A stretch of DNA of 49,902 nt from Terriglobales bacterium (GTDB lineage Bacteria; Acidobacteriota; Terriglobia; Terriglobales; Acidobacteriaceae). Each line of letters opens with the position of its first letter. The stretch's first letter is position 1. A model generated the notes under the pieces. The model was not told the origin of the DNA. It ran no database searches and was given only the letters and a program-made list of their open reading frames with translations. Where the stretch lies: assembly GCA_015655195.1 (NCBI GenBank), contig JAATFM010000217.1:1-49902 (forward strand). Direction: 5' to 3'. This document shows positions 11,162 through 29,897 of the stretch, piece by piece. Position numbers and translations under genes: made by a program.

Positions 11162-11287
11162 ATTCTTCGCTCCGACTATGCGTTTCTCAGATATGTTTTT
11201 CAGTGGGATTTCCAGAAGATGCGGAACCTGCCCGTGTATTTCGTTTCCATGCGCCGATGATTTGAGCCTGCGAAGACAGGCATTGCG

Positions 11288-12796: not shown

Positions 12797-12866
12797 TTAT
12801 TCCCCCATGGCAGCGCAGTCCCGCGCTTGCGGCAATATGAATTGTTTCGCGGATTGAGCCGGGCGC

Positions 12867-15161
12867 TCAATAGACCCGCATCTCGTAGATGGCCGCGGAA
12901 GGATCGCCATTTGTCGCCAGCACCACTATGCGGATTCGCCGCGTCTGAACCGGCTGTTCGAGCCGGTGTTTCCGTTGGCGTTGATAGTTCTCGCGCACTG
13001 CAAGCAGTGTTTTCCAGCCGCCTTCGGCTTCGTACTTGATGTCGTAATCGCGCACGCACTGCGGGTCTCGATAGAACGGCGCATAGGCGTGATACTCGCG
13101 CAGCAGATGGCCGGCAAATGTGATCTCGACTGCATTGATCGATTCCGGAGCAGTCCATGCAAGCTCAAGCCACTGCGGCAGAGGCTCTTCCGGATCGGAG
13201 CGCCAGAGATTGGTTCCGTTGTGCGGACGGGTTTGCCCGCTCAGGACATTCTTTGCTGCAAAGCAATGTTGCGGCGGATCGACAAGCATGGACAACGTGA
13301 CTCCGCTGGAATAACGCCTCATTTTCCCCGGCGCCATTTCAAAAGCGGAAACATGGCCTGGCTCGATCGCACCGGCAACGTGCCACAGAAGATCAGGATT
13401 TGCGTCGAGATCGATGCGTATATAGCCCTCGGAAGGAAGAAGCGCGTCCTGCGGCAAGGTCCACTCTACCCATTGGCGCTCGCCCGGAGCAACGTCCAGT
13501 TGCCCCTTGGCAAGCTCCATTGCTTCCTCCACGCGATAATCCCAGACGTGCAGCACCTGCATCACGCGCACGGCAACGCTCTGCACAGCGCCGCTGGTAT
13601 TCGACAGGCAGAAGCGAACAAGCCGGACAGGCTCAGGCCCCACGGCAACCCACTGTCCGCGCCGCTGCAAGAGTTCTTCGCGAAGCGGCACGGCTTGATC
13701 GCGCCAGAAGCCGAGCCCCTCATGCACGCCGACGGATTCGGGAGTCAGGCCGCGGAAACGCGCCTCACTGGAAGCGGAAGCCTCCGCGCTTCTTGTCTTG
13801 TCCGCCTCATCGGCATTGCGAACATTCGGCAGAAAGCATCCGTCGCGAAGCAGCCGCTGCTGCACTGCACGATATTCCATACGGCAGACCTCGGCTGGCG
13901 GGATCGCCTTGGCCACGGCCATCCCGGCAGCAACGCCGGCAGCCTGGCCCATCAGCGCCGTGGTTGCCATCACGCGAACAGTTCCCAGAGCACAGTGCGT
14001 TGCGCTCACGTTGCGCCCGGCCATCATCAGGTTGTCGATGTCCCTGGATACAAGTATGCGAAGCGGAATGCCATACGGTCCGGCATAGGAGCGGGCAGCA
14101 TATTCGCTGGTTTCCGAGTAGCCCTCCGCGCTTGCGGGCTCGCTTCTGTCGGCAAGCAGGCCACCGGGAGTGTGGATGTCGATGAACCAGCCGCCGAAGG
14201 CAATCTCATCTTCATGCGCAGTGCAGCGGAGGATGTCCCACTCGTTCATCAGATAGAGGCCCATCACGCGGCGGCTTTCGCGCTTGCCGGGAACCTGGCC
14301 AATCCAGTCGAGCGCGTAGTTTTCAGCCAGCTTCATGGTCTTCGGATCTTTGTTCTTGATCCAGTCCCAGACGCCGAGGGTATGCCGGGTGAGTTCGTGG
14401 CGAATAGACTCGGCCTGGTGAATGGTGTCATAGGGAACGCCGATTTCAATCCACCAATATCCGCCTCGCATATCTTTCGGCAGGCGGCCCTGATCGTAAA
14501 AATAGCGGCCATCCTTATGCTCAATGGCCCACGGCGGCAGCTTGAAGGGAGACGGCCTGCCCATGTCTCTCGTCTTGAAGTGAATGGAATTCCCCATGAT
14601 GTCGCCGTTTGCCTTTTCCGGCGCATGCGGCTCATTAAACTCGTTCCTGCCTTCACTGCCCATTCTCCACTCGCATCCCGCCTCCGATGCGACAATGCCG
14701 TCACCGGTGCAGTCGATAAAGACCTTTGCCGAAAGCGAGAGGTTCACCTCCGCGTTCGACACGCGGCACTCCACGCTCTCGATGGCGCGCCCGCGCACTT
14801 TGACGCCAAGGATCGAAGTGTTGAGATAAAGAGTGAGATTCTCCGTGCGCTGCACGGCGTCATAGATAGTCATGTCCCATACCGAGTTCGTCCAGCCATT
14901 CTCGAATATGGTTTCGTGATTAGCCGCCCGCTCCTCGATAAGGAGCTCGGAGATGATTCCGGTCTCGCGCGCGTAGGCATGAAATGCGGCTGCTCCGTGC
15001 GGAGTAACGCGAATCTCCGACGAGCTGTTGCCGCCGAGCACGGGCCGATCCTGTACCAGACAGGTTCTTGCGCCGGATCGAGCCGCAGCAATGGCCGCGC
15101 TTACGCCTGCCAGTCCCCCACCACACACCGCTACGTCATACTCGCCGGAGATGTTTTTCAT
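12867..15161 (-). CDS. FAD-dependent oxidoreductase (FAD_oxidored type) with C-terminal beta domain
   Basis: This 764-residue protein opens with a Rossmann FAD-binding fold, VAVCGGGLAGVSAAIAAARS, an acidic-end strand and VLGGNSSSEIRVTP. It also has the second flavin contact FIDCTGDGIVASEAG and the late MMAGRNVSATHCALGTVRVM. Residues from about 480 onward form beta-rich modules; the last (WTAPESINAVEITF to IRIVVLATNGD) resembles a discoidin-like carbohydrate-binding sandwich. No signal peptide is visible. Members of this family occur in polysaccharide-utilisation clusters, but their substrates are mostly unknown. The gene is 70 bp upstream of the GH30-like gene on the same strand. Oxidation of a sugar or glycoside is inference. 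Confidence 0.82.
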   Translation of the reverse strand: MKNISGEYDVAVCGGGLAGVSAAIAAARSGARTCLVQDRPVLGGNSSSEIRVTPHGAAAFHAYARETGIISELLIEERAANHETIFENGWTNSVWDMTIYDAVQRTENLTLYLNTSILGVKVRGRAIESVECRVSNAEVNLSLSAKVFIDCTGDGIVASEAGCEWRMGSEGRNEFNEPHAPEKANGDIMGNSIHFKTRDMGRPSPFKLPPWAIEHKDGRYFYDQGRLPKDMRGGYWWIEIGVPYDTIHQAESIRHELTRHTLGVWDWIKNKDPKTMKLAENYALDWIGQVPGKRESRRVMGLYLMNEWDILRCTAHEDEIAFGGWFIDIHTPGGLLADRSEPASAEGYSETSEYAARSYAGPYGIPLRILVSRDIDNLMMAGRNVSATHCALGTVRVMATTALMGQAAGVAAGMAVAKAIPPAEVCRMEYRAVQQRLLRDGCFLPNVRNADEADKTRSAEASASSEARFRGLTPESVGVHEGLGFWRDQAVPLREELLQRRGQWVAVGPEPVRLVRFCLSNTSGAVQSVAVRVMQVLHVWDYRVEEAMELAKGQLDVAPGERQWVEWTLPQDALLPSEGYIRIDLDANPDLLWHVAGAIEPGHVSAFEMAPGKMRRYSSGVTLSMLVDPPQHCFAAKNVLSGQTRPHNGTNLWRSDPEEPLPQWLELAWTAPESINAVEITFAGHLLREYHAYAPFYRDPQCVRDYDIKYEAEGGWKTLLAVRENYQRQRKHRLEQPVQTRRIRIVVLATNGDPSAAIYEMRVY

Positions 15162-15291
15162 ACGGATGCAGCTTCTCCCTGAAAGTTCGTCCGATGGTTA
15201 TCTTGAAATGCGGCCGATTGCGTAATCCCAACGCCTGCGGAAGAAACTCGGGCAAAGAGAACTTCCTGCCCGAGTTTCCGACGCGCAGGAA

Positions 15292-18200
15292 TCAAAAGTG
15301 AAGCTTCGCGCCAAGCTGAACGGTACGAGCGGCATTGGCTCCGGTGACTACGCCAAAGTTGGAGTTTGTGTTTGTGCCTCCTTCGGCATAGGGATTGGAT
15401 GGGTCCGCAGGCGGGCCCGCAGTGAAGGACGTATTCGGATTCTGCAGGTTCGTCCTGTTCAATGCGTTGTATGCCTCGATGCGAAGCTCCAGCTTCGTGC
15501 GATCTTTGATATTCACAGTTCGAAAGAGCGACATGTCAAAGTTGGCCTGTGCCGGTCCACGGAGATGCGAGTAGGTGCGCGGCACATTGCCGAAGCTATA
15601 GTCCGGCGGATCAATGAAGGCCATAGGATTGAACCACTCGGCCTTGCTCTGATGTTCGGTCTTGATGCTGGCTTCAGGATTGAAGTTCGGGCGCGTCGCG
15701 ATTCCCTGATTCGTGGCGCCGGTAATAAGAAGCGGACGTCCCGACTCCAAAGTCATAATCACGTTGTACTGCCAGCCGCCGGCGATAGCCGCGAGAACGC
15801 TGTTGTGGTTCAGGAAGCGCTCGCCTCTGCCAAAGGGCAGGTCGTAGAGAGCCGCAACGGTTGCCCGCTTGTTTACATCGAAGGTGTCCACGCTGTAATC
15901 GCCCCACAGATTGTAAGGATTCTGCGGACCGTTGGACGTGGACGCACCTCCGCCCGGCGCTGTGGAGAGATCGGTGAAGATGGGCAGGTCTTCCAGCCTG
16001 CCGTATGTGAAGGAGGCCGTCACCGCCAGTCCGTGAGCCGCACGGCGCTGTGCCGTGAGGTACAGATAGTTGCTGCTGAAAAAGCCATTGCGCGGGTAGC
16101 TTGGAAGCACGCTGGTGTAGTACGGATATGGCTTGAGCAGAGTGGCGTTGGTGAGCGTAGCCGCTCCCAGGCTGCCGGGCACGACTCCCGCGTATGGATT
16201 GGGCGCGGAAGCATTCAGGAACGCTGTTCCAAGATTGTAATAGCTTGGATTCAGAACATTTTCGTTGTACTCATTCAGCGTGTAATGACGCCCGATGTTA
16301 CCGATGTAGGTTGCATCGACAACCCACTGGGCTGGAAACTCCCGCGAGAGCGTGAGCGTGAACTGCTGCGAGTTGGGGTCCTTCTGCGAGCGGTCAATCG
16401 TATAAACAGCTTGCCCGAGGAAGCCCGTCTGGCCAAGGGAGCGGCCTGCAACGGGCGCGATTGTTCCAGGCATGCCGCTGGAGAACTGCGAAAGTACGCC
16501 GTTTGAAGTGGAGGAAGTAAACGAGGTCGTCAGGCCGGTGAACCCATTTGGGTTTCCATCCGACTGCATGTACTCCTCGCCAGAGGTGGAAGCGTAATAA
16601 ATCGCAGCACCGCCGCGGAGAACGGTGCGGTTATCCGGCGTAAGCGCGTAGGCGAATCCGATACGCGGGCCGAAATCGCCGAAGTTTTCCTTGGCAAAGT
16701 TTCTGCCGTAACCGTCGATGCCGGCAAATTGAACAAGCCCCATCAACGCGGGATTGGAACCATTCGGCTGGCTCAGGTCGACATTGTCGAACATATCCTG
16801 CTTGGCATACGCATTCGCCATGTAGTCATAGCGAAGACCGACATTAATCGTCAGCCTCGGCGTAGCCCGCCAGTCATCCTGCATATATCCGGCATACATC
16901 ATGTGCCGCCACGCGGAACCTGCCACTGGAGTCGAGCTGGCGCTATTCACCGCGCCGATGAGATAGCTGGCATACGTGCTTCCCGTGCCCGATGTCACGG
17001 AAGTATTGTTCCCTGCCGCAGTAGTGCCGGCTATGAAATTAAAGACGCCCGACGAGCTGTTGTCCTGGTAGTTGTAGGTTTCCGTGAAGCGCGCGCTGGC
17101 GCCGATTGTAAGTGTGTGCTTGCCGTGGATCAGCGTTGCGTCATCGATAAGCTCTCCGATGGTATTGGCACGGAATCCTACAGTTGCGTAAGGCTCCGCC
17201 ATGCCGTTGCCGATTTGCAGCGCGGTCAGGCCGCTGTCAAGAAAGGGCGGCATGCCGATAGCGCCTACATTGTCCTTGTTGGCCTGCGCGGAAGCGAAGA
17301 GAAAATCCGTACGCACCAGCCCGAACCGCACTTCATTCACCACAGTCGGAGAGAAAATGTGCGTCTCCGAGAGAAGCGCATTCTGTTGCTGGTCACTGTC
17401 GTTGCGGTTGAACTCCGCGCTGTATCCCTGCGCGTTATTCTGCGTGCTCTGGTAGTAGCCGTACCTGGCCACAATGCTGTCCGTTGAATTCAACCGGTAA
17501 TCCACGCGCGCAATGCCCAGCTTGTCGCCCACAATCAGTTTCGGGCTTTCGACATAGTTATTCGCATGGGTGCATGGGTTGTAAGGGCCGGAGGTATTGT
17601 TCGGCTGAGGATAAAACAATTTCTGGTATGCCACCGCAGCCGAATCGAGACGGCTAGGCGGAATCACATTGTCAACGCCGTTGTAGCTGAATTGCGTTCT
17701 CGATCCGGTATTCGATGCAGTGGCCGGGTCGTAGATCGGCACCGGGGTACAGGCGCCGCCGCTGCTCACCACGCCAAGGTCGCTGAAGTCCCCCTGATAT
17801 TCCTGCGCCGTGGGAACGGTCGTATAGGACGGCGTATCGGAGATGTATTTGTACTGCTCGTAGTTGACGAACAGGAAGAGATTTTTGGTGTGAGGAATGG
17901 GCCCACCGAAAGTTCCGCCGTAGTTGTTAAAGCGCGTCTCCGGCTTGCCGAAGGCAGGCTTCGGGAATGCGATCTCGGCATCGAGAGCGTCGTTGCGGAA
18001 GAACTCGTAGAGGCTACCGTGATATTTGTCGCCGCCGCCGCGCGTAATTACGTTCACGATGCCGCCGGAGGTGTAGCCGAACTGCGCCGGAATCACTCCG
18101 GACATGATGCGGTATTCCTGAATCGCATCCGAGGTAATGTTGATTCCTATTTCACTGGTAAAGGTTGTCACGTTTGTCACGCCGTCGATCATGTTATTGT

Positions 18201-18843
18201 TCAAGCCCATCACGCCGCCGGAGATGCGGATGGACGAGACGGCGGTTCCGCGGTTCGCGAAGCCTTCACTGACCGCGCCTACGCCGGAGGTTACGCCAGG
18301 GCTCAGCGTGGCCAAGGCAAGCACGCTTCGTCCATTGACCGGAAGCTGCTGCGCGTTACGGGTGTCAATGGTGCTGCCCACGGTAGCGTCCGTGGTGTTC
18401 AGCGCGGGCGGAATCGCCTGCACCGCGATGGTGGCAGTGGCAGCGCCAATCTGCAACGCAACATTTTCCGTCACGTGGGCCGCCGCATCCACCGTAACAT
18501 TGGTTGCGCGCCACGGCTTGAAGCCGTCGACCGCAATCTCTACGGTGTATTCCCCTACCTGCAGCCGCTCAGCCTGGTAGTATCCGGTGCCATCCGTAAC
18601 CACGTCCACGGCCAGCCCGTTGTTCTGGTTTGTGATGTGCACTTTCACGCCGGCGAGGCTGGCGCCGCTCGGGTCCGTCACTGTGCCCACGATGTAACCG
18701 ACATCCTGCTGCGCCCATGCGACCATGCCGCCGGCGAAGACCATCAGCAGCAATGACGCAAAAAGCCGCGTAATTCCCGCGCGCAGCCCTCTCGATCTGA
18801 GTTGTAGCTTGACCACTGGACTAACCTCCAAATCAATTTCCAT
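15292..18843 (-). CDS. Oar-like TonB-dependent outer-membrane protein with CarboxypepD_reg domain
   Basis: This is a 1183-residue outer-membrane protein. After a signal peptide (LFASLLLMVFAGGMVAWAQ) comes a carboxypeptidase-regulatory-like beta-sandwich (YIVGTVTDPSGASLAGVKV to GFKPWRATNV). Then come a plug-like domain (QLPVNGRSVLALATLSPGV, NNNMIDGV) and a long barrel rich in aromatic and Asn/Thr strands. It ends in a terminal phenylalanine (VQLGAKLHF), a typical outer-membrane sorting signal. The start at 18843 is preferred because AAGGG lies just upstream; the GTG at 18894 has no proper site. Such proteins are very numerous in Acidobacteria and are thought to take up oligosaccharides or bind surfaces. 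The partner two-component system lies directly upstream. Confidence 0.92.
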   Translation of the reverse strand: MEIDLEVSPVVKLQLRSRGLRAGITRLFASLLLMVFAGGMVAWAQQDVGYIVGTVTDPSGASLAGVKVHITNQNNGLAVDVVTDGTGYYQAERLQVGEYTVEIAVDGFKPWRATNVTVDAAAHVTENVALQIGAATATIAVQAIPPALNTTDATVGSTIDTRNAQQLPVNGRSVLALATLSPGVTSGVGAVSEGFANRGTAVSSIRISGGVMGLNNNMIDGVTNVTTFTSEIGINITSDAIQEYRIMSGVIPAQFGYTSGGIVNVITRGGGDKYHGSLYEFFRNDALDAEIAFPKPAFGKPETRFNNYGGTFGGPIPHTKNLFLFVNYEQYKYISDTPSYTTVPTAQEYQGDFSDLGVVSSGGACTPVPIYDPATASNTGSRTQFSYNGVDNVIPPSRLDSAAVAYQKLFYPQPNNTSGPYNPCTHANNYVESPKLIVGDKLGIARVDYRLNSTDSIVARYGYYQSTQNNAQGYSAEFNRNDSDQQQNALLSETHIFSPTVVNEVRFGLVRTDFLFASAQANKDNVGAIGMPPFLDSGLTALQIGNGMAEPYATVGFRANTIGELIDDATLIHGKHTLTIGASARFTETYNYQDNSSSGVFNFIAGTTAAGNNTSVTSGTGSTYASYLIGAVNSASSTPVAGSAWRHMMYAGYMQDDWRATPRLTINVGLRYDYMANAYAKQDMFDNVDLSQPNGSNPALMGLVQFAGIDGYGRNFAKENFGDFGPRIGFAYALTPDNRTVLRGGAAIYYASTSGEEYMQSDGNPNGFTGLTTSFTSSTSNGVLSQFSSGMPGTIAPVAGRSLGQTGFLGQAVYTIDRSQKDPNSQQFTLTLSREFPAQWVVDATYIGNIGRHYTLNEYNENVLNPSYYNLGTAFLNASAPNPYAGVVPGSLGAATLTNATLLKPYPYYTSVLPSYPRNGFFSSNYLYLTAQRRAAHGLAVTASFTYGRLEDLPIFTDLSTAPGGGASTSNGPQNPYNLWGDYSVDTFDVNKRATVAALYDLPFGRGERFLNHNSVLAAIAGGWQYNVIMTLESGRPLLITGATNQGIATRPNFNPEASIKTEHQSKAEWFNPMAFIDPPDYSFGNVPRTYSHLRGPAQANFDMSLFRTVNIKDRTKLELRIEAYNALNRTNLQNPNTSFTAGPPADPSNPYAEGGTNTNSNFGVVTGANAARTVQLGAKLHF

Positions 18844-19254
18844 TTCCCTTGTCAGCCGCGTTTCCGCAGAAGATTTCCTGCCTCTCTGGCACACTCCAGC
18901 GAAAGCCGCAGCGCCACAACATCAGCCTGGCTCCGGGTATATTGTGTCGAGCTCCCGGTAGACATCGCTGCGCACGGGCAAAATGACATTGCAGCGAATC
19001 TATGCTCCATAAATAAGAGTTGCCATCTGCCGAAAGTCAGATTGGAAGAAAATTTTTGCGAAGGCATTTTCAGCCGGAAAGCAGGCGCAGAAATCCCAAA
19101 GCTCACACTCCAAAAGGCTCTTTTTCAGCAGGCTGAAGAATCGGGGATATAGGAAAAGCGCAACCTTGCGAGTGACTCACCGGCCTCACAAGATCATCCA
19201 TCCGCTGCCGAAGATACGCCGAGGCGCAGTACGATTCGCGTGGTGAAGTGCTTT
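18844..19254. other. 411-bp intergenic region upstream of the Oar-like gene
   Basis: No convincing gene is seen. Read on the minus strand it is A/T-richer than its surroundings between about 19000 and 19110 and is the likely promoter region of the Oar-like gene and the downstream island genes. A short palindrome, TTCAGC-CT-GCTGAA, lies at about 19123-19136, without a T tract. A weak promoter-like pair (CTGACT, then TTATTT) lies around 19009-19038 on the minus strand. I do not call it firmly. Confidence 0.4.
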
Positions 19255-19875
19255 CTAGATATGGATCAGACCGCGCTGCAGCGCAGTAACCACCGCCTGC
19301 GTGCGATCACGGACGCTGAGACGATTGAGTATCACGCTGACGTGGCACTTTACCGTACCCTCGGTGATTCCCAGATCGCCGGCGATCTCCTGATTGGACC
19401 TGCCTTGTGCGACCAGCCGCAGAACATCGCACTCGCGCCTGCTGAGCGATGAGTCCGGGGCGCGGGATGCGAGAGTTTTGGAGACAGGAGAAGGCAGATA
19501 GCGCCCGCCGGCATGAACTCGCCGAACAGCATCGAACAAAATCTCTTGCGGCATGTCTTTGATGAGATAACCGGAAGCGCCCGCCTCCATTGCCTGATAG
19601 ATGTCCTCATCGCCGTCGTAAGTGGTGAGGACAATGAAGCGTGCCCGTGGGCTCTGATTGCGAATTCGCCGAATGGCTTCCACGCCGTTGATGCCGGGCA
19701 GCCTCAGGTCCATCAGCGTAACATCCGGCTGGCGCTGGAAATGCAGGATGACGGCCTCTTCTCCGTTCCTGGCCTGCGCCACAACATTCATTTCCTTGCT
19801 GGATGCGAAGAGGGCGCCGATCCCAACCAGAACGATGGGATGGTCATCGACGATAAGGATACGAATAGCAGGCAT
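19255..19875 (-). CDS. LuxR/NarL-type response regulator
   Basis: This 206-residue regulator has a receiver domain with the acidic pair D10/D11, the phospho-acceptor D56 (TLMDLRLPG), a T in VLTTYDG and K106 (LIKDMP). A C-terminal LuxR helix-turn-helix follows (SLSRRECDVLRLVAQGRSNQEIAGDLGI; EGTVKCHVSVILNRL). It is encoded 83 bp after the propeller sensor kinase on the same strand and is its obvious phosphorylation partner. It probably activates the Oar-like gene and the enzymes downstream; this is inference from gene order. A promoter-like element sits so close to the ATG that the mRNA may be nearly leaderless. Confidence 0.95.
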   Translation of the reverse strand: MPAIRILIVDDHPIVLVGIGALFASSKEMNVVAQARNGEEAVILHFQRQPDVTLMDLRLPGINGVEAIRRIRNQSPRARFIVLTTYDGDEDIYQAMEAGASGYLIKDMPQEILFDAVRRVHAGGRYLPSPVSKTLASRAPDSSLSRRECDVLRLVAQGRSNQEIAGDLGITEGTVKCHVSVILNRLSVRDRTQAVVTALQRGLIHI

Positions 19876-19883
19876 GGCAATGG

Positions 19884-19913
19884 ATTATAGGGTGAGCCGC
19901 GCACCAGTGTCAG
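19884..19913 (-). promoter_or_regulatory. Sigma70-like promoter for the response regulator
   Basis: On the minus strand CTGACA (19913-19908) and a perfect TATAAT (19889-19884) are separated by 18 bp. Transcription would begin around 19877, about two bases before the ATG at 19875, implying a leaderless or nearly leaderless message. No Shine-Dalgarno sequence is present upstream of this ATG, which agrees. It would let the regulator be expressed independently of the kinase gene. Confidence 0.5.
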
Positions 19914-19958
19914 CCCTCGTCCGGATTCCTTCGATAGATCTCCCGTCCAGATCGCACA

Positions 19959-22900
19959 TCAGGGAGCGATTGCATCGCGCGGAATCCTTACATCCACGCG
20001 CGTCCCCTGGTGCAGAGAGCTTTCAATCTCAAATTTTCCATGGAAGCGATGAATACGCTCCCTCATTCCACGCAGGCCGAAGTGTCCCTCCGCAAAGGCG
20101 TCGGAGGCATCAAAGCCAATGCCGCTGTCCTTCACCGTGAGCGATAGCATATCCACCAGATAGGCTATCTCGACTTCGATTTCATGCGCATGCCCATGAA
20201 GGATGGCATTGAAGACCGACTCTCTTGCGACCATCAACACTTCATGCGCGGCCTGCAGGCTGATCGGGAAGGGCTTTCCGCGCGAACGGTTATTTACTTT
20301 CAATCCGTGCTCATGGCTTATGCGCTCGGCCATGCGCTGCAAGGCCGTCAGCAGGTCCACGGACGCGCGCTCCTCGCCACGCAGATCCCAGACAGCCTGG
20401 CGCGCTTCATCAATAGTGGCGTGAATCTGCGTAGACGCGAAATCGATCATATGCAGCCGCGATTCCGGATCGCCGGCTTCCCCGCTTGAAGCAGCCTTGA
20501 GCAGTGCGGAGACCGCAATGCAGCCCTGAATCAGCGTGTCGTGCATCTCCCGCGCCAGCCGCGTGCGCTCAGCCAATACAGCCTTGAAGCTGCCTTTTAC
20601 CTGCTGCATACGCACCTGGAAGGCAAACCAGGAGAGCAGCACCAGCCCAAGCGCGCAGAGCACAAGGAACCACGGCGTTTGATAAAAGTGGCGCAGCTTT
20701 ACGACTTCAATGGAAGCGCGAACAATATGTTTCGGGTAAGCCGTCTGCCAGGCTTCGACAAGAAACGTGAACCTGCCGGGTGGGAGATTGGTATAGGTCG
20801 CGAGCCTCTGCTGCGCATTCGTATATGTCCAGCTTGTATCGAAGCCCTCAAGTTTATAGCGAAAGCCAAGGCCCTCCTGCTGCGTGAGCAGCACCGGCTG
20901 ATAGGCGATGTCGACGCGGTTGCTGTCCGCATTGAGGCGCAGGTTTTTCACCAGGGACATCGGCTGGCCATCCACACTCATGGAATCGATGTTCAGGTTG
21001 AACAGAGCGGGACGCCCTGCCTCATCCGGACTGATATTCCATAATCCCTGGCTGGTGGGAAACCATGCGTCGCCGTTTGCGGTAAGCGCGCCGGCTGACT
21101 GTATGCCCCCAAGAACCTGCACCGAGACGTTACCCGTGCTTGCCTCGTAGTAGCGAAGCGAGAAAGGCGGACCTGAGTTTGGAACGTAGGCGATCAGCTC
21201 CGCGCGATTCAGCAGCATGACTCCGGATGGACTGCTGATCCATAGATGATTCTGTTTGTCGCTGAGAATGCAATAGATCGTGTTGCTGGTGAGGCCATCC
21301 GCCATGGTGTAGTGAGCAAGGCGGCCATCGCGATAGTAAAAGATGCCGTCTCCGCGGGTTCCTATCCAGATGCCTCCATCCACGTCGCGGTAAAGCGCCC
21401 ATATCCGCTTGTCGCTCAGCGTTGCCGTAAGAGCGTCATCGACAAAGGTGCCGTTTCTATACCTGCCAAGACCTCGCTCCGAGCCAATCCAGATGGTTCC
21501 ATCCCGATCTTCGAGCAACGAGCGAATGTAGTTGGCGGCCAGGCCGTTTTGCGTTCGTAAATTATGCAGGCCGGCGTGGTCGAGATGGCTCACTCCATAA
21601 TTTGTTCCGATCCACATGGTGCCGTCGTGGGCTTCGAGAAGAGCCTGAACGAAGTTGCTGGACAAACCGGCCTGCGTGGTGAAGTGCTGGTTCTTGTTTG
21701 CGGAAAGGCGGTAGACACCGCCGCCGATCGTTCCAACCCAGAGAGAGCCGTCGCGGCCACGCAGCATATTGCGAACGCGCACGCTGCCTAATTCGGGGAA
21801 ATGAACCGGCTGCGCAGAGTCGCCGCGGACGTGCATGAGTTGATTAGAAGCAAACCAGAGCGAACCATCCGTATCCAGTGCCGCCGTGCCGAAATCGGCC
21901 CCGGCGGCCTCGGGCAGCGCCAGCACACGCATCGTCGTCTGGCTCAGGCACATGATGCCGGTAAGGGTGCCGATCCAGAGGTTCCTCGCGGAGTCAATAA
22001 AGATGGAGTACACAGTGTTGCTGATAAGCGTGGACGGCGCCTGTATCCGCGTTACATCGTTGCCGCGAATCCTGAAGATGCCGGCCCCGATTGTGCCTGC
22101 CCACAGTTCGCCGCCAGGCACGACACGCAAAGTGCGAATGAGTCCGAAGACGCCGGGCATCGGCGTGAGACGATCCGCACCGGGAAGCAGACGATAGAGA
22201 CCGCTCACCGTGCCGACCCAGATCGTGCCGTCTTCCGTTGCGGCCAGGGATTTCACCTGGTTGCGGTTATCGTTGCCCGGCAGAGGATATTCGCGAGGGC
22301 GTCCCTTTTCAAAAGAGTACAGATGAGAACCGCCTGCCCAGATGCGGCCTGTGCGATCTTCCAGCACGGCATGAGTGTCGGAAATGCTCGTTCCCAGCGC
22401 CTTATCGACATGTTCCAGACGACCGTCCCTTGCCCGGAACAATCCGCCATCGGTGGCGACCCATAACTGGCCGCCGCTATCCTGCGCCAGCGCCCTGACG
22501 TAAGCGACGCTCTGGCCTCTCTCCGTGGGGTAAGCGTGAAAGACGCCATTCTGCCATTCAATCAATCCTGCGCCGCTGGTGCCGATCCATAAACTTCCAT
22601 TCCGAGCTGCGAGCAGGCTGAAGACATCGTCTTCCGCAAAGGCTGGCGTATTCACGTGGTTGAACAGGCGGAAATTCGCGCCATCGAAGCGCAGCAGGCC
22701 GCCGGTGGTACCAATCCAGAGATAGCCGTCGGGCGTCTGCGCGAAGGCCTGTATCGTCTCTTCCGGCAGGCCGTTTTGCAACTGCCAGGAGCGGATCATG
22801 TAGTTCAGCTTCCGGCCGTTTTCATCACGCGCCTGCACTGTAAGCTGCTGCGCGGAGAAGCTCACACCAGCCGCGGCATACAGCCACGCGAAAACAACCC

Positions 22901-23000
22901 ATAGCAGAATTCTGCCGGTCCATCGTGAAGCCAGCCGCCGCAGCTTTCGATTTTCTCGAATGGAAACCAGGTTCAGGACCAACCTCCAACGCGAACTCAT
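19959..23000 (-). CDS. Sensor histidine kinase with Reg_prop beta-propeller and Y_Y_Y domain
   Basis: This 1013-residue one-piece sensor starts with a signal or anchor segment (ILLWVVFAWLYAAAGVSFSAQ). It continues with two seven-bladed propellers' worth of Reg_prop repeats; recurrent signatures are DGYLWIGTTGGLLRFD, GTIWVGTVSGLYRL, GTMWIGTNYGVSHLD and GTIWIGSERGLGRY. A Y_Y_Y domain follows (FRYKLEGFDTSWTYTNAQQR), then one membrane helix (WFLVLCALGLVLLSWFAF). The cytoplasmic HisKA_3 domain has phospho-acceptor H820 in REMHDTL, and the ATPase domain has VKDSGIGFD and GHFGLRGMRER. In Bacteroides the same extracytoplasmic architecture senses oligosaccharides in hybrid systems. Here the regulator is a separate gene, 83 bp downstream. 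Confidence 0.95.
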   Translation of the reverse strand: MSSRWRLVLNLVSIRENRKLRRLASRWTGRILLWVVFAWLYAAAGVSFSAQQLTVQARDENGRKLNYMIRSWQLQNGLPEETIQAFAQTPDGYLWIGTTGGLLRFDGANFRLFNHVNTPAFAEDDVFSLLAARNGSLWIGTSGAGLIEWQNGVFHAYPTERGQSVAYVRALAQDSGGQLWVATDGGLFRARDGRLEHVDKALGTSISDTHAVLEDRTGRIWAGGSHLYSFEKGRPREYPLPGNDNRNQVKSLAATEDGTIWVGTVSGLYRLLPGADRLTPMPGVFGLIRTLRVVPGGELWAGTIGAGIFRIRGNDVTRIQAPSTLISNTVYSIFIDSARNLWIGTLTGIMCLSQTTMRVLALPEAAGADFGTAALDTDGSLWFASNQLMHVRGDSAQPVHFPELGSVRVRNMLRGRDGSLWVGTIGGGVYRLSANKNQHFTTQAGLSSNFVQALLEAHDGTMWIGTNYGVSHLDHAGLHNLRTQNGLAANYIRSLLEDRDGTIWIGSERGLGRYRNGTFVDDALTATLSDKRIWALYRDVDGGIWIGTRGDGIFYYRDGRLAHYTMADGLTSNTIYCILSDKQNHLWISSPSGVMLLNRAELIAYVPNSGPPFSLRYYEASTGNVSVQVLGGIQSAGALTANGDAWFPTSQGLWNISPDEAGRPALFNLNIDSMSVDGQPMSLVKNLRLNADSNRVDIAYQPVLLTQQEGLGFRYKLEGFDTSWTYTNAQQRLATYTNLPPGRFTFLVEAWQTAYPKHIVRASIEVVKLRHFYQTPWFLVLCALGLVLLSWFAFQVRMQQVKGSFKAVLAERTRLAREMHDTLIQGCIAVSALLKAASSGEAGDPESRLHMIDFASTQIHATIDEARQAVWDLRGEERASVDLLTALQRMAERISHEHGLKVNNRSRGKPFPISLQAAHEVLMVARESVFNAILHGHAHEIEVEIAYLVDMLSLTVKDSGIGFDASDAFAEGHFGLRGMRERIHRFHGKFEIESSLHQGTRVDVRIPRDAIAP

Positions 23001-23262
23001 TTAAATACATTGCTCGTAGCCCTGTCAGCTATGGCTCGGAAGTCTGTGCGCCCCCGATTCTCCCGCGCTGAAGCCGGCCGGCGTAAAAAATAATTCGTCC
23101 AGTCTTACTTTCAGCAGATTTGTTCTCAGACTCAAGGAGCTTACGATCTATCTGCACAATCAGCAGTCTTGTGCCGATGGCTGGAAGCGCTCGGTCGCTA
23201 CAAGGCGCATACTCCGCTCCCGCCGCATAAGCAATCACGGAAACATCCATGAAAGGGTGCCG
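23001..23262. other. Divergent intergenic region between kinase and secreted-protein genes
   Basis: This 262-bp region separates the minus-strand kinase start from the plus-strand secreted-protein start and must contain promoters for both. I see no gene and no strong sigma70 element. A loose CTGACA lies 15 bp from TATTTA just before the kinase ATG. Confidence 0.35.
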
Positions 23263-24714
23263 ATGCACAACAGATTTACACTTCCTTCTCATCGGTCCGT
23301 CTCCCGGCGCTCTGTGCTGGCAGCGCTCGCCGGCTCAGCCGGCTATGCATGCGCGCAGAGCCTTCTTCCAAAAGTTCCGAATGTGGGCCTGAAGGGCAAC
23401 AGCGATCCGAACCGTACGGAGTGCGGCATTGGCGCGCTGATGCCTTGGGCGGACGGCCTCTATGCTGTCACTTACAACTCTTCCGGCACGGGCGGCAAAA
23501 CCAGCGGCGCGCGCAGCGGCAGCGGGCTGGGTCTATACCGCATCGACGAGACGCTTCAAGCCACCATGCTCGATGAAGTGAATGGAGTCTTTGCCAACCG
23601 CTTCCTCCATCACCACTCCAATCAGTGCATCATCGGGCCATACATCGTTGACGCGGGCGGCAAATGGCGGCGCATCGAGGGGCTGCTGCCGTACCGTCTG
23701 ACAGCCACCATGCCGCACCTGACCGATCCGGAAAATCGCGTCTATTTCCAGACCATGGAAGGACTCTTTCTGGAGATGGATGTTACCGACCTCAAGCCGC
23801 GGGTGCTGTTCAATCTGACCGAGGACATGCACATCACCGAGCAGCCACACTTCAAAGGCGGCTACACCGCGCAGAATCGCGTGGTCGTATCGAACAATGG
23901 ATTCTTTGCCTACGGGCAGACGCAGGCCGGGCTGTTCGAGTGGGACGGCGGCGCAAAATGGCGGCGAATCTCGGATAAACCGCACATGGATGTTGCCGCC
24001 CGCCAGAACATGGGCAGTGTGCTGTTCACTACCGGCTGGGACGAGCGCTCCGTCCTGCTGGATGCGCTGGTGAACGGCGAATGGCAGCATTATCGTCTGC
24101 CGAAGGCGTCGCACGCATTTGAGCAGGGATGGCAAACGGAATGGATGCGCATCCGCGAGATTGAAACCGAACACTACATGATGGACATTCAGGGAATGTT
24201 CTACGAATTGCAGCCGATCGCTTTTGAGAACCATATCTGGGGCGTCAAACCCGTCTGCCAGCACTTGCGAACCATTCCCGACTACTGTAGCTTTCGCGGA
24301 TTGCTCGCCCTGGCCGGCAACGAGACAACACCGAACGAAGACAACAACGCCGTCGTAGGGCAGCCGCAGAGCGGCATCTGGTTTGGCAAGTCGGACGATT
24401 TATGGAGTTGGGGCAAGCCTCAAGGCTGGGGCGGTCCGTGGCGCAACGATCCTGTCACCGCAGGCACACCTTCCGATCCTTTTCTCTTCACGGACTTTCG
24501 CCGCAAGATGCTGCATCTGGTCTCAGAAAAGGCCGCGGAAGTAGAGATTCAGGTGGACTTCCTTGGCAACGGAACCTGGGAGAAATATGAAACCGTCAAG
24601 CTGAATGGCGGCGAATACCGGCCAGTAATCTTTGAGAATGCGTTCAGCTCGCAATGGATTCGCCTGGTGCCGAGCGTTTCCTGCAGAATGACGGCAGAGT
24701 TCATGTTCACGTAA
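23263..24714 (+). CDS. Tat-exported protein of unknown function in the glycan island
   Basis: I do not recognise the family. The 483-residue product starts with a twin-arginine signal (SVSRRSVLAALAGSAGYACAQ). The remainder is beta-rich and soluble. Two similar blocks, GGKWRRIEGLLPYRLTATMP and GAKWRRISDKPHMDVAAR, and frequent W/Y/G turns suggest a propeller-like fold. Residues LWSWGKPQGWGGPWRNDP and a C-terminal beta segment (VEIQVDFLGNGTWEKYETVKL) follow. ATG at 23263 is preferred to GTG at 23257 because GAAAGGG lies 5 bp upstream. It is divergent from the propeller kinase, so it may be part of the same response, perhaps as a glycan-binding or lyase-like enzyme. That is speculation. Confidence 0.75.
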   Translation: MHNRFTLPSHRSVSRRSVLAALAGSAGYACAQSLLPKVPNVGLKGNSDPNRTECGIGALMPWADGLYAVTYNSSGTGGKTSGARSGSGLGLYRIDETLQATMLDEVNGVFANRFLHHHSNQCIIGPYIVDAGGKWRRIEGLLPYRLTATMPHLTDPENRVYFQTMEGLFLEMDVTDLKPRVLFNLTEDMHITEQPHFKGGYTAQNRVVVSNNGFFAYGQTQAGLFEWDGGAKWRRISDKPHMDVAARQNMGSVLFTTGWDERSVLLDALVNGEWQHYRLPKASHAFEQGWQTEWMRIREIETEHYMMDIQGMFYELQPIAFENHIWGVKPVCQHLRTIPDYCSFRGLLALAGNETTPNEDNNAVVGQPQSGIWFGKSDDLWSWGKPQGWGGPWRNDPVTAGTPSDPFLFTDFRRKMLHLVSEKAAEVEIQVDFLGNGTWEKYETVKLNGGEYRPVIFENAFSSQWIRLVPSVSCRMTAEFMFT

Positions 24715-25000: not shown

Positions 25001-26923
25001 ATGAGCTTCCAGATTCGGAGAGCCGGTCTGCATCTGCTGGCAGCAGCCGGAGTTTTCTTGTTGCTGGGCGCTTCCGACGCCGCAACACAGGCCCAGAATC
25101 AGCAGCCCTCCCAGCCGCCGCTCTACGGCGGCAAAGGCCCCGCGGCCACCCAGCAGGGCGGCTCGGCCACGGCAGGCGTCTTTGCGCCGGTTCTCGACTC
25201 CGAAAAGCGCCCCATCACCGCCGGCGGCTTTGTGAAGAACGGGCCGGTTGTCTTTGCGGACATCTCCGAAAAGGCCGGGCTGACCACGTGGAAGCACAAG
25301 ATGGGCACGCCCGAGAAGGCTTTCATCCTGGAGGCGATCGGCTCCGGCGTGGCGCTCATCGACTACGACAACGACGGCTGGTTAGACATCTACCTCGTCA
25401 ACGGCTCTACAAAGGATGCCTTGAGCGGCAAGGAGACTCCGCCGCAAGCAGCGCTCTTCCACAACAATCACGACGGTACCTTTACCAACGTTGCCGATAA
25501 GGCCGGTGTGACGAACGACCGCTGGGGCTTTGGCGTGGCCGTCGGCGACTTTGACAACGACGGCTGGCCCGACCTGTATGTGGCGAATTTTGGCCATAAC
25601 CGCCTGTACCATAACAATCACGACGGCACCTTTACCGATATCGGCGAGAAGGCCGGCGTAACGCTGGGCAACTGGTCCACCGGGCCCAGTTTTGGCGACT
25701 ATGACGGCGATGGACGGCTGGACCTTTTCGTTCCCGGCTACGTGCATTTTGATCTCGATCACCTGCCTGTCACCGGCACGGCCGCGGTGGGCTATGCGAA
25801 CTGCACCTTCCGCGGCACCACCACTTACTGCGGCCCTCGCGGCCTGCCGGGCGAACCCGATCACCTCTTTCACAACAACGGCGACGGCACCTTTACCGAC
25901 GTAAGCGAGAAGGCGGGCGTGAACGACAAGCGCCATTACTACGGCTTCTCCTCCACCTTCGTCGACATTGACAACGATGGCAAAGTAGACTTGCTGGTCG
26001 CGGACGATTCTTCGCCCAACTACATGTACATCAACAAGGGCGACGGCACCTTCCAGGATTCGAGCTTCTTCTCCGGCTTCGCGCTCAATCAGGATGCGCG
26101 CGAGACGGCTTCGATGGGCCTGGCCGTGGGCGATTACGCAAACAACGGGCGCCTCGATTTGTATACGACCACCTTCTCCGACGATTACAAGACCCTCTAC
26201 CGCAACGACGGCGAAGGCAACTTTGTCGACATCACGCCGCAGATGGGGATTGCCGAGGCGACCTATCCCTTTCTGAGCTGGGGAACGCAGTTTTTTGACT
26301 TCGACAACGACGGATGGAAGGACCTGATGTTTGTGAGCGGCCACGTTTACCCGCAGGTGGACGATCACAACTGGGGCACATCCTGGTCGGAGCGGCCGCT
26401 GCTCTTCCATAACGTGGGTCACGGCAAGAAGTTCGCGGTGATGCCGCCGGTCGAGGGCTCGGGGCTTGCCGATGTAATTCCGGCGCGCGGCGCAGCCTTC
26501 GGCGATCTCTTCAATGACGGCAAGATCGATGTGGTCATCAACTGCATCGACCACACGCCGGTGCTGCTACGCAATGTGAACGACGACCACAACCACTGGG
26601 TCGGCCTCCGGCTCATCGGCGGAGCAAAATCTCCACGCGATGCCATTGGAGCTAAGGTCTACGTGACCGCCGGAGGTCAACGCCAACGCGGCGACGTGAT
26701 GAGCGGCGGCAGCTTCGAGTCCTCCAATGATTTCCGCCTGCACTTCGGCATCGGTGAAACGGCGAAGGTGGACAAAGTTGAAATCCAGTGGCCGGACGGC
26801 AACAAAGAGACCGTCACCCTGCCCGGCGTGGACCGCATCTACGCCGTGGAAGAGGGCAAGGGGCTGGTTCCCAGCGTTTACGACAAGATTGCCGCCGAGC
26901 AGGCCGCCGCGAACAAAAAGTAA
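25001..26923 (+). CDS. Secreted FG-GAP/VCBS repeat protein with ASPIC/UnbV domain (CRTAC1-like)
   Basis: This 640-residue protein has a signal peptide (LHLLAAAGVFLLLGASDAATQAQ). The body is a beta-propeller of FG-GAP/VCBS repeats with calcium-loop motifs DYDNDGWLDIY, DFDNDGWPDLY, DYDGDGRLDLF, DIDNDGKVDLL and DFDNDGWKDLM, each followed by an LFHNNxDGTFTDV-like strand. The C-terminus is an ASPIC/UnbV domain (NHWVGLRLIGGAKSPRDAIGAKV; VEIQWPDGNKETVTLPG). The ATG at 25001 has GAGGT 5 bp upstream, which rules out the longer frame from 24905. The family is calcium-binding and extracellular with unclear chemistry. It is the first gene of a three-gene unit with a multihaem cytochrome. Confidence 0.93.
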   Translation: MSFQIRRAGLHLLAAAGVFLLLGASDAATQAQNQQPSQPPLYGGKGPAATQQGGSATAGVFAPVLDSEKRPITAGGFVKNGPVVFADISEKAGLTTWKHKMGTPEKAFILEAIGSGVALIDYDNDGWLDIYLVNGSTKDALSGKETPPQAALFHNNHDGTFTNVADKAGVTNDRWGFGVAVGDFDNDGWPDLYVANFGHNRLYHNNHDGTFTDIGEKAGVTLGNWSTGPSFGDYDGDGRLDLFVPGYVHFDLDHLPVTGTAAVGYANCTFRGTTTYCGPRGLPGEPDHLFHNNGDGTFTDVSEKAGVNDKRHYYGFSSTFVDIDNDGKVDLLVADDSSPNYMYINKGDGTFQDSSFFSGFALNQDARETASMGLAVGDYANNGRLDLYTTTFSDDYKTLYRNDGEGNFVDITPQMGIAEATYPFLSWGTQFFDFDNDGWKDLMFVSGHVYPQVDDHNWGTSWSERPLLFHNVGHGKKFAVMPPVEGSGLADVIPARGAAFGDLFNDGKIDVVINCIDHTPVLLRNVNDDHNHWVGLRLIGGAKSPRDAIGAKVYVTAGGQRQRGDVMSGGSFESSNDFRLHFGIGETAKVDKVEIQWPDGNKETVTLPGVDRIYAVEEGKGLVPSVYDKIAAEQAAANKK

Positions 26924-26992
26924 CAGGAAGCGCACTTCCTCGATCAGAAACGTACCAATGGGCAAGACACGCACAGCCTACAGAGGGACACG

Positions 26993-29386
26993 ATGAAACC
27001 TGTCATCATGGCGCGAATGTTTTTCGCTACAGCGGCGCTGGCCAGTGCGCCGCTTACGATCCTGTTTTCGGCTCCGCTTTTGACCGCGCAGGCGCAGCAG
27101 AAGAGTGTGAACCCCGCCGACCCCGGTTCCAGCGAGCTTGCTCCACCGCCGGCTTACACGCCGCGTGCCAAGGACGCCCCGCCTGCCACGGACACGCAGG
27201 CGCAGATCGATGCGCGGGCTCGCGCCAAGGCCCGCGCTGAAGAAAAAGTCGCGGCGGATCGCAAGGCTTACAACGCGCTCGTGACGCCAGCCTACAACTT
27301 CCACTATGGGCAGAAGAATCCCTTCACGCCGGGCAACGTTCAGGCAGAAGGCGAAGGCTTCTTGCAGCCGGGCGCTTATCCCAGTGCGGAGTATTGCGGA
27401 ACCTGCCACCAGGAGGCTTACACGCAGTGGCGGCAGGCGCTGCACTCAAATGCCTTCCGCACGCCGTTCTATCGCACCAGCGTCAACCTTCTCATCCGCG
27501 ACAAGACGCGCGGCATCTCCTTTGCGCGCCACTGCGACAGTTGCCACAACCCCATCGGCGTGCTGGGCGCGGCGCTCACTGAAGACTCGAAAGTGGATCG
27601 CGCCAAGTTTGATTCCGACGGCCTGACCTGTATGACCTGCCACTCCGTCACCAGCATCGGCACCACGCAGGCCGGCGGCTCCCTCAACGGCAACGCCGCC
27701 GTTACGATAGGCGTTCCCGCCGTAATGGTCGATGAGAAAGGCAATCGCATTCCGGGACAGGTTCCGTTCGACGAGATTCTTCGCCACCCCGAACGCCACT
27801 CGCAGGCCGTGATGCACGACTTTCTGCACAAGCCGGAGTTCTGCTCCGCCTGCCACAAGGCCAATCTTCCCTCGCCGCTCAACGATTACAAGTTTCTGCG
27901 CGCCTTCACGGCTTATGACGAGTGGCAGCAATCGAAGTTCTCGCAGCGCAATCCGCTCACGTTTTATACCGCGGACTTTACCTCATGCCAGGGATGCCAC
28001 ATGAAGCGCAATCCCGTTTCGCTGCCCGAGTACGGCGCGAAAAACGGCACCTTTGCTTCGCATCGCTGGCTGGCCGGCAACACTGCCGTGCCTTTCTATT
28101 ACGGCTTCACCGAGCAGCTCGACAAGACGATCGAGTTCCTCCGCACTGGCAACTACCTTAACGTTGACATCTTCGCGCTCAAGAAGAACAGCGACGAAAA
28201 ACTCATCGCCCCGCTCGGCAAAGTTTCTTACTCGCTTGCGCCGAGCGATGTTGTCGAGGCGTGGGTCGTGGTGCAGAACAAAAACATCGGCCACTCACTC
28301 ATCCCCGAGGTCCGCGACCTCTACGAAGCGTGGGTCGAGTTCACCGTCAAGGATGCAAACGGCAAGGAAATCTACCACTCCGGCTTCCTCAAACCGGATG
28401 GCATGATCGATCCCCGCGCCCACAGCTTTACCAACCGGCCTGTCACCGATGAAGGCGATTTCGTCGACAACCACAAAGTATGGACGATTCACTCGGTAGC
28501 TTACGACAACACCGTGTCAGCCGGCCGCTCGGTGCTGGTGCGCTACCAGTTCCGCCTGCACGCCGACGTGCAAGGTGCGGTCTCCGTTACGGCAAAGGTC
28601 AACTACCGCCATCTGCGCCAGAGCTATCTCAACAACATTTTCGGCAAGGACCACCCCGCCTATCCGGTCGTCGAAATCACCTCGCGCACCCGCACGCTTC
28701 ACATCGGCAGCAACGGGCCTGAGACTCCCGAACCCAACGACAACGCGGATTGGATGCGATGGAACAACCTCGGCATCTCGCTCCTCGATGAGTTCCAGTA
28801 CAAGGAGGCCGTCGACGCTTTCAATGAGGTCGTGAAGCTCCGCCCCGACTATGCCGACGGCTATACCAACATCGGACTCACCGAGATTGTCTGGGAGAAG
28901 TACGACTCGGCTCGCGCCGCCATTGACCGCGCACTGCGGATCGACCCTGCCAGCGCCCGCGCCCGCTACTACGACGGGCTGCTCCAGCGCCGCGCCGGCA
29001 ACACGGACAAAGAAATCGCGGACTTCGAGTACGTTGTCGAGAAATTTCCGCAGTCGCGCGATGCACGGCGCGAGCTTGGCATTACCTACTATCAGCAGAA
29101 GATGGACGCCAAGGCCATCGAACAGTTCGAGGCGCTGCAGCAGATCGATCCCGACGATCTTGCGGCGCACTATAACCTTTCCATCCTTTACCGCCGCGAG
29201 GGCAAGCTCGAAGCGGCCCGCGACCAGCAAGCGCTGTTCGTCGATAAAAAGGTCGATCCCGGCGCGCCGACTTATTCGCTGAACTACCTGCGGGCGCATC
29301 CGGAGATTTCGACCGAAAGCATCCCCTGGCACATGCACTCCGACATGATGGAAGAAACAGGAGGCACACACAATGGCAGCAAATAA
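26993..29386 (+). CDS. Pentahaem cytochrome c fused to C-terminal TPR domain
   Basis: This 797-residue exported protein starts with a signal peptide (FFATAALASAPLTILFSAPLLTAQA) and a charged Ala/Lys/Arg linker to residue 90. Five c-type haem motifs are visible: CGTCH (135-139), CDSCH (181-185), CMTCH (213-217), CSACH (284-288) and CQGCH (332-336). Extra histidines nearby (HSNAF, RHSQAVMH, FLHK) could be distal ligands. This resembles the cytochrome c554/c-prime class. A beta-rich middle region (about 390-560) precedes four or five TPRs (about 585-760), for example WNNLGISLLDEFQYKEAVDAF. It should transfer electrons in the periplasm or on the cell surface. The ATG at 26993 has GAGGG 5 bp upstream. 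The next gene overlaps its 3' end by 14 bp. Confidence 0.93.
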   Translation: MKPVIMARMFFATAALASAPLTILFSAPLLTAQAQQKSVNPADPGSSELAPPPAYTPRAKDAPPATDTQAQIDARARAKARAEEKVAADRKAYNALVTPAYNFHYGQKNPFTPGNVQAEGEGFLQPGAYPSAEYCGTCHQEAYTQWRQALHSNAFRTPFYRTSVNLLIRDKTRGISFARHCDSCHNPIGVLGAALTEDSKVDRAKFDSDGLTCMTCHSVTSIGTTQAGGSLNGNAAVTIGVPAVMVDEKGNRIPGQVPFDEILRHPERHSQAVMHDFLHKPEFCSACHKANLPSPLNDYKFLRAFTAYDEWQQSKFSQRNPLTFYTADFTSCQGCHMKRNPVSLPEYGAKNGTFASHRWLAGNTAVPFYYGFTEQLDKTIEFLRTGNYLNVDIFALKKNSDEKLIAPLGKVSYSLAPSDVVEAWVVVQNKNIGHSLIPEVRDLYEAWVEFTVKDANGKEIYHSGFLKPDGMIDPRAHSFTNRPVTDEGDFVDNHKVWTIHSVAYDNTVSAGRSVLVRYQFRLHADVQGAVSVTAKVNYRHLRQSYLNNIFGKDHPAYPVVEITSRTRTLHIGSNGPETPEPNDNADWMRWNNLGISLLDEFQYKEAVDAFNEVVKLRPDYADGYTNIGLTEIVWEKYDSARAAIDRALRIDPASARARYYDGLLQRRAGNTDKEIADFEYVVEKFPQSRDARRELGITYYQQKMDAKAIEQFEALQQIDPDDLAAHYNLSILYRREGKLEAARDQQALFVDKKVDPGAPTYSLNYLRAHPEISTESIPWHMHSDMMEETGGTHNGSK

Positions 29387-29897
29387 TGGCTGGCTGACAC
29401 GCCGGCTCCTCCGCGTTGCGCTGCAAATCATGCTGCTGCTGGCGCTGCCCGCTGCGGTCCGCGCCGCGAATAACTGCCCGTGGCTCACCGAAGCCACGGC
29501 GGGCGGTCTACTCGGTGGCACGGCTGTCGGCACATTTACCGCGGGTCAGCCCGGTCAGCCCTCAACGTGCAGTTTTGTCGATAAGGAATCCGGCGGCACG
29601 CGCGAGCTTACCATTACGGTCGAGATCAATCCCGACGCTCATACGCAACTCGCGGCTATGATGCACGACTGCGGCGCTTCTGGCTCGCTTCTTCAGGCTA
29701 TCGGTAATGAGGCGGCTGTTTGCGCGATGGACTCGCGCCGCAAGTCGCTGGCCGAGCGCGTGGTCGGGCGAGTGCGCGACCAGATTTTTACCATTGCGAT
29801 TATGACTTCGCTCAAGGATGATCCGGTTCTCGACCACTCCATGCTGATGACGAAGATTTACACCGCATCGGAGCAGGTTGCCGGCAATCTCTTCTAA
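29373..29897 (+). CDS. Small secreted four-cysteine protein coupled to the pentahaem cytochrome
   Basis: This 174-residue protein has an N-terminal signal (VALQIMLLLALPAAVRAAN). The mature part has four cysteines (NNCPW, STCSF, HDCGA, AVCAM), enough for two disulfides. The pattern CPWLTEATAGGLLGG followed by STCSF recalls small lipoprotein-like domains such as DUF3558, but the match is by eye only. No lipobox is seen. The start lies inside the last codons of the cytochrome gene, so the two are very probably co-translated. It may be an accessory or ligand-binding subunit of the cytochrome/ASPIC complex. The assignment is inferred only from position. Confidence 0.8.
   Translation: MAANNGWLTRRLLRVALQIMLLLALPAAVRAANNCPWLTEATAGGLLGGTAVGTFTAGQPGQPSTCSFVDKESGGTRELTITVEINPDAHTQLAAMMHDCGASGSLLQAIGNEAAVCAMDSRRKSLAERVVGRVRDQIFTIAIMTSLKDDPVLDHSMLMTKIYTASEQVAGNLF

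Follow-up and report, generated by a model that had tools for sequence, protein, structure and literature searches.

The window analysed here is the whole stretch of 49,902 nucleotides read 5' to 3' from the forward strand of contig JAATFM010000217.1 (positions 1 to 49,902) in the assembly GCA_015655195.1 of a Terriglobales bacterium of the phylum Acidobacteriota. It contains three consecutive genes, coding for an ASPIC/UnbV propeller protein of the CRTAC1 type, a pentahaem cytochrome with C-terminal TPRs and a small four-cysteine protein (Table 1), which Acidobacteriota soil bacteria keep as a conserved unit. The first two genes are separated by 69 bp while the second and third overlap by 14 bp (29373-29386), and the open reading frames bear out the gene positions and the overlap given in a preliminary description of this DNA. 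The ASPIC start at 25001 was preferred over a longer frame opening with TTG because the alignments of close relatives begin at residue 1-3. The export signals earlier ascribed to all three products agree with what is seen by inspection, as opposed to a signal-peptide predictor: each has a hydrophobic, Sec-like N-terminus, and none of the three shows a lipobox by the pattern used.

Table 1. Features of the three-gene unit, in window coordinates.
Feature	Position	Strand	Details and basis
ASPIC/UnbV (CRTAC1-type) FG-GAP propeller protein	25001..26923	+	640 aa, Sec-like N-terminus
UnbV_ASPIC domain, residues 548-614	26642..26842	+	PF07593 76.0 bits; 80.9 bits in genome search
Pentahaem cytochrome, Ig-like domain and C-terminal TPRs	26993..29386	+	797 aa
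Five-haem domain, ~residues 110-385 (borders approximate)	27320..28147	+	5ze8 match, model range 126-569
Haem motif 1, CGTCH, residues 135-139	27395..27409	+	Cys/His columns invariant in 70 rows (CX4CH in two)
Haem motif 2, CDSCH, residues 181-185	27533..27547	+	motif scan, alignment
Haem motif 3, CMTCH, residues 213-217	27629..27643	+	motif scan, alignment
Haem motif 4, CSACH, residues 284-288	27842..27856	+	motif scan, alignment
Haem motif 5, CQGCH, residues 332-336	27986..28000	+	motif scan, alignment
Ig-like beta domain, ~residues 386-575, invariant H434	28148..28717	+	AlphaFold strands 389-574; within 5ze8 match
TPR region, ~residues 584-768	28742..29296	+	Pfam, AlphaFold model, structure matches
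Small four-cysteine protein, PknH-extracellular-domain fold, Sec-like N-terminus	29373..29897	+	174 aa

The cytochrome contains exactly five CXXCH motifs, which account for all ten cysteines, and in 20,000 shuffles of its sequence the number of motifs never exceeded one. Pfam recovers Cytochrome_C554 and the TPRs, both above cut-off, and the motif count with these matches confirms the earlier picture of a five-CXXCH cytochrome fused to TPRs. The number is conserved among relatives: five haem motifs are present in all 70 rows of an alignment of the window protein with 69 of 76 relatives (alignment A2), counting as haem motifs the CX4CH that replaces the first CXXCH in two distant cytochromes (L032 and L137; L numbers denote loci retrieved in this study), and 87 of the 93 matched frames have five CXXCH, the other six having fewer and all being cut or interrupted. 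The c-type cytochrome assembly family PF01578 has three matches in the source genome. An AlphaFold model built from the 70 aligned sequences (pLDDT 90.1, pTM 0.88) predicts a haem domain, a beta domain and TPR helices. Its top Foldseek match is the pentahaem cytochrome c552 of Thermochromatium tepidum (5ze8; E 1.8e-12, TMt 0.68), which VIA-align superimposes over 345 residues of the model range 126-569 (Z 16.3, 3.9 A), although there 5ze8 ranks 12th, the top 11, and indeed most rows, being TPR or designed repeat proteins. A profile of the haem domain from 48 of the 70 rows (alignment A3) retrieved the 5ze8 chain (E 1e-8), followed by the selenoprotein MccSep (1.5e-4) and cytochrome c554 (0.002). 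By model comparison, the order of a five-haem domain followed by an Ig-like domain represents the same fold as the PHC or c552 type. In PMC11976967 the pentahaem (PHC) family groups ExtKL, Gsu2801 and proteins of cable bacteria, and the sPHCs are described as structurally homologous to T. tepidum c552. Together, the 5ze8 fold match, the profile matches and this grouping identify the window protein, as modelled, as a PHC-type cytochrome with added TPRs. The NCBIfam model for ExtKL (NF040886) gives it 23.9 bits, under the curated cut-off of 250, and is matched by 35 of the 48 relatives at E<=0.01; an in-frame UGA (selenocysteine) of the ExtKL type is absent from the window gene, an uninterrupted frame of 797 codons. 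Behind the TPRs an E-S-x-P-W-H-x-H tail is conserved (residues 775-782, 29315-29338; H780 in 63/70 and H782 in 62/70 rows), which is possibly a ligand or a contact.

The propeller protein is recognized by Pfam through FG-GAP_3 (177.7 bits) and UnbV_ASPIC, the latter above its cut-off of 23.4 bits; its PDB match is cartilage acidic protein 1 (CRTAC1, 9etn; E 2.2e-13), and it displays five perfect D-x-[DN]-x-[DN]-G-x-x-D loops. The ASPIC/CRTAC1 proteins also have a vertebrate member. Searches with the small protein found nothing in Pfam at E<=0.1 or among PDB sequences at E<=10, and gave a single, chance-level NCBIfam match below cut-off. In an alignment of 61 of its 63 selected relatives with the window protein (alignment A1, 62 rows; L040 and L095 were dropped), Cys 35, 66, 100 and 117 as well as R135 are invariant. 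Its model is of high confidence (pLDDT 90.6), and while Foldseek found no strong match (best E 0.011), VIA-align superimposes it on the extracellular domain of PknH (4esq) over 127 residues at 2.8 A with Z 12.4, and on TiME, PsbP and Mog1 with Z 11.7, 9.5 and 8.7, respectively.

Peptides of the window cytochrome recovered 73 named loci, a search which therefore sees near relatives; three of these records bear proteobacterial names and are possibly mislabelled metagenome-assembled genomes. A locus was taken as judgeable if it had a cytochrome frame of >600 aa with 2,000 bases before and 2,700 after it, as is the case for 51 of the 73. All three genes stand side by side in 47 of these 51, in two arrangements: ASPIC-cytochrome-small in 24 and cytochrome-ASPIC-small in 23. 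The remaining four comprise L052, with a split ASPIC frame and no small gene found, L062, where ASPIC accompanies a cytochrome to which the small protein is fused, L080, with no small gene found, and L102, with neither ASPIC nor small gene found. The expectation that the three families occur together in order across Acidobacteriota is borne out for their togetherness but not for a fixed order, and the alternative that they lie apart in most relatives is contradicted by their adjacency. At the level of 297 Acidobacteriota genomes, the small protein occurs in nine, once in each, and in all nine within ~250 bp of the cytochrome. ASPIC is present in 88 of the 91 genomes with the cytochrome as against 54 of the 206 without it (p 2.6e-33, shared ancestry not being removed). 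The source draft genome yielded two ASPIC genes, each adjoining one of its two pentahaem-TPR cytochromes.

The association also seems to have withstood changes in its members. On a cytochrome tree made with fasttree (39 and 26 rows; long-branch warnings in other parts of the tree), two changes are required to explain both gene orders; this tree omits the duplicate, cut or split genes of L010, L099, L103, L104, L106, L108, L109, L138 and L139, along with rows lacking a TPR match. The ASPIC genes of the two orders form two subfamilies, split at 100/100 in a tree of 37 hand-picked rows built with no mixture model, whereas the cytochromes of the two orders are still ~60% identical; this points to a propeller that was probably exchanged with its adjacency kept, and not dispensed with. 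The ASPIC type of the second order mixes with copies outside the units, and the outside copies in L093 and L097 group with the first type. Two loci of the first order, L053 and L057, have a second-type ASPIC close by and are possible intermediates. A comparable exchange is seen in the third position: of the 17 loci of a related class (L110-L126), 10 have a gene for a mono-haem cytochrome c immediately after that of the cytochrome (gaps of -44 to +103 bp), where it occupies the place of the small protein. In L062 (2041-4800) the pentahaem-TPR cytochrome is fused to the small PknH-fold protein, which follows the TPRs via a Thr/Pro-rich linker.

ASPIC genes extend well beyond these units: 142 of the 297 genomes have matches, and 53 list at least 10 among the at most ~19 scored per genome. 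We compared 40 ASPIC sites, a non-random set hand-picked from the top of the match lists at positions >70 kb and not beside a listed cytochrome, with 40 control stretches of the same contigs taken 60 kb away. A TPR gene lies within 7 kb at 29/40 ASPIC sites versus 1/40 controls (p 2e-11). At 23/40 ASPIC sites one is present within 500 bp on the same strand, a count to which the controls cannot fairly be compared. The controls are not entirely clean, with ASPIC genes in L229 and a PHC in L233. Fusions of ASPIC to TPRs also exist. With the neighbouring TPR genes, these lend support to the earlier suggestion that the TPRs of the cytochrome hold partners. Some of the sites have multihaem frames directly beside ASPIC, with seven motifs in L170 and L185 and ten in L167 and, by inspection, in L178; in L194 an unforeseen PHC takes this position. 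The frames of L170 (5018-6904) and L185 (8625-10433) encode seven-haem cytochromes ending in TPRs, and overlap the ASPIC gene by 4 bp. This heptahaem-TPR family is found in 42/297 genomes at E<=1e-30, with TPRs in 28 of the 30 loci retrieved with ~1.5 kb flanks.

We think it reasonably likely that the three genes encode one extracytoplasmic multisubunit electron-transfer complex. Electron transfer is proposed because of the family of the cytochrome, from which neither direction, substrate nor surface exposure follows; we infer the mutual binding of the subunits, which part binds which, and the passage and direction of electrons. The core would be the PHC-type pentahaem cytochrome, whose five-haem and Ig-like domains follow the pattern of T. 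tepidum c552 and ExtKL. The ASPIC/CRTAC1 propeller would probably dock on the C-terminal TPR superhelix of this cytochrome, because ASPIC genes elsewhere lie near TPR genes, and the small PknH-fold protein would be a third subunit set against the C-terminal side of the cytochrome. The fact that a mono-haem cytochrome c often takes this third place in the related class suggests that it could be the side of electron entry or exit, filled by a carrier in that class and here by a protein that might gate, stabilise or replace the carrier.

Several observations weigh against this proposal. Three of the 91 cytochrome genomes (G051, G063 and G121) are devoid of ASPIC, and the co-occurrence of the two across genomes is not phylogeny-corrected. 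The second copy in the source genome (contig C11) has no small protein. Among 35 further TPR cytochromes that we classified, which come from L110-L149 and comprise 34 from other genomes, most of them more distant, plus this second copy, 18 have a same-strand ASPIC neighbour and the other 17 lack one, some of these on contigs that are cut short; the count omits L144, L147 and L148, where no TPR was detected (though ASPIC adjoins the latter two), as well as L138 and L139. At the hand-picked ASPIC sites, genes with at least three haem motifs within 7 kb are not significantly enriched (7/40 versus 2/40, p 0.15), and just 6 of the 30 heptahaem loci have an ASPIC, a number that counts the query itself and two weak cases. 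Finally, the ASPIC and cytochrome distance matrices correlate in one class (r 0.91) but in the other no better than shuffles (r 0.14), a discrepancy perhaps caused by unequally complete rows, truncated ones included, so that the comparison is not used as support. The 17 cytochromes with no adjacent ASPIC, and the many ASPIC genes with no cytochrome nearby, would suit a mere co-regulated gene set, in which the propeller and the small protein serve the envelope or matrix without ever contacting the cytochrome. We consider this improbable in view of the fusion in L062, the retention of adjacency despite replacement of the partner, and the one-to-one pairing of ASPIC and cytochrome in the source genome.

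The identity of the cytochrome itself bears on a further question, namely whether it acts as an enzyme. An NrfA-type nitrite reductase was rejected, as its catalytic CXXCK occurs in 0/70 rows; nitrite-reductase profiles match relatives weakly (TIGR03152 in 1/48 and NrfB-type in 6/48). The hydroxylamine oxidoreductase (HAO) family is characterized by an eight-haem arrangement, whereas the window protein has five haem motifs only and matches an HAO-like chain at just E 0.28. With c552 as the best cytochrome fold match, nothing indicates that it is a known nitrite or hydroxylamine reductase, an identity that the preliminary description had named as refuting its proposal. Outside the motifs, four histidines are invariant or nearly so (H151 in 69/70 rows; H269, H357 and H434 each in 70/70), and since these are only four for five haems, one haem may be open. 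This opens the way for an enzymatic alternative, in which one five-coordinate haem would reduce or oxidise a small molecule and both the propeller and the small protein would be accessory. Also in its favour, PMC11976967 lists sPHC and lPHC with the cytochromes that contain at least one five-coordinate haem, and PMC5877670 considers ExtKL a candidate in selenite reduction. However, either H477 (65/70) or H780 (63/70) could furnish the fifth ligand, and this, with the absence of the NrfA motif, leads us to regard an enzyme as unlikely.

The preliminary description had suggested a surface module, and a cell-surface electron-transfer module or a nanowire-like polymer serving solid acceptors would find its parallels in the same family: PMC11976967 reports a structural relationship between PHC cytochromes and the archaeal nanowire AvECN, and the extHIJKL cluster, which includes ExtKL, supports metal oxide reduction in Geobacter (PMC6148476), a parallel by analogy only. 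We nevertheless hold this reading to be very improbable. The AvECN subunit has four haems, whereas the window cytochrome has five haem motifs, an Ig domain and a large TPR arm. An outer-membrane conduit of the Mtr type was likewise rejected, as the MtrB/PioB porin (PF11854) has no match in the source draft genome, which is 96% complete, other porin types not having been searched. The large CarboxypepD_reg/outer-membrane-barrel gene ~6 kb upstream of the unit (15292-18894) is not of the MtrB/PioB type.

As for the surroundings, a histidine kinase with Reg_prop propeller and a LuxR-type response regulator lie ~2 kb upstream on the opposite strand (19255-23000). Relatives of the kinase occur in 12 fetched loci (e.g. 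L047, L050, L112-L114, L118, L119 and L121), those of the regulator in nine (e.g. L043, L050 and L069) and those of the outer-membrane barrel in 13; the kinase-regulator pair is a possible regulator of such units. Directly upstream, on the same strand as the unit, a 485-aa protein with a signal-like N-terminus (23257-24714) has no Pfam or NCBIfam match at E<=0.1 and no relative among the fetched loci compared. An extended operon was considered and rejected: P0004 has no relatives in the other loci, holA has one in L037 only (the same region in Terracidiphilus), and the relatives of kinase, regulator and barrel recur but at varying places. Because the outer neighbours either lack relatives or vary in place, we ended the unit at three genes. 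Further upstream on the opposite strand (9863-18894), an MFS transporter, an FAD oxidoreductase with an F5/F8 C domain and the large CarboxypepD_reg/outer-membrane-barrel protein look like a neighbouring substrate-utilisation locus.

The combination of an ASPIC protein, a pentahaem-TPR cytochrome and the small protein was not found described in the literature searched, in which subscription journals are thinly covered, and the same literature yielded no established function for bacterial ASPIC/CRTAC1. The pairing with a definable cytochrome offers a first testable role for this widespread family in bacteria, and the source genome, where just two ASPIC genes were detected and each belongs to such a unit, a minimal system in which to address it. 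The window cytochrome further extends the PHC family by a branch that bears TPRs; other members of this family are discussed with respect to metal and selenite reduction and nanowires. More tentatively, and with the odds on balance against it, bacterial ASPIC/CRTAC1 propellers might be general TPR-docked partners of multihaem cytochromes, with an exchangeable third subunit directing the electrons. The propeller would then be carried on the TPR arm of a cytochrome-TPR fusion (pentahaem here and heptahaem elsewhere), other haem proteins would be its partners in hydrazine-synthase-like clusters, and the third subunit, be it the PknH-fold protein or a mono-haem cytochrome c, would set the destination of the electrons. 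If true, this would constitute a modular envelope redox platform that is not described as such in the literature searched.

Each component of the unit has a known counterpart from which it departs. With T. tepidum c552 and the PHC family (sPHC and lPHC of cable bacteria, Geobacter ExtKL and Gsu2801) the window cytochrome shares the five-haem domain and the Ig-like beta domain; unlike them, it has C-terminal TPRs, is encoded beside ASPIC and PknH-fold proteins, and is only 17-19% identical. The window protein also scores far below the curated cut-off of the ExtKL model, and the window gene lacks an internal stop codon. The ASPIC protein has the FG-GAP repeats and the UnbV_ASPIC domain, above cut-off, in common with the CRTAC1 propeller family, but differs from CRTAC1 itself in being bacterial and placed in a cytochrome unit. 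The small protein shares its fold with the PknH extracellular domain, TiME and Mog1/PsbP-like proteins; unlike the PknH-type domain, it is a stand-alone protein with a putative export signal, at 5-11% identity, and the likeness of fold shows no function. A parallel in genomic setting comes from the hydrazine-synthase-like clusters of clades I-III, clade I including Paludibaculum fermentans, which harbour CRTAC1 FG-GAP genes (PMC12758564, in part). There too, a CRTAC1 gene stands beside genes for haem proteins, although the haem subunits differ and the part of that source seen gives no role for CRTAC1.

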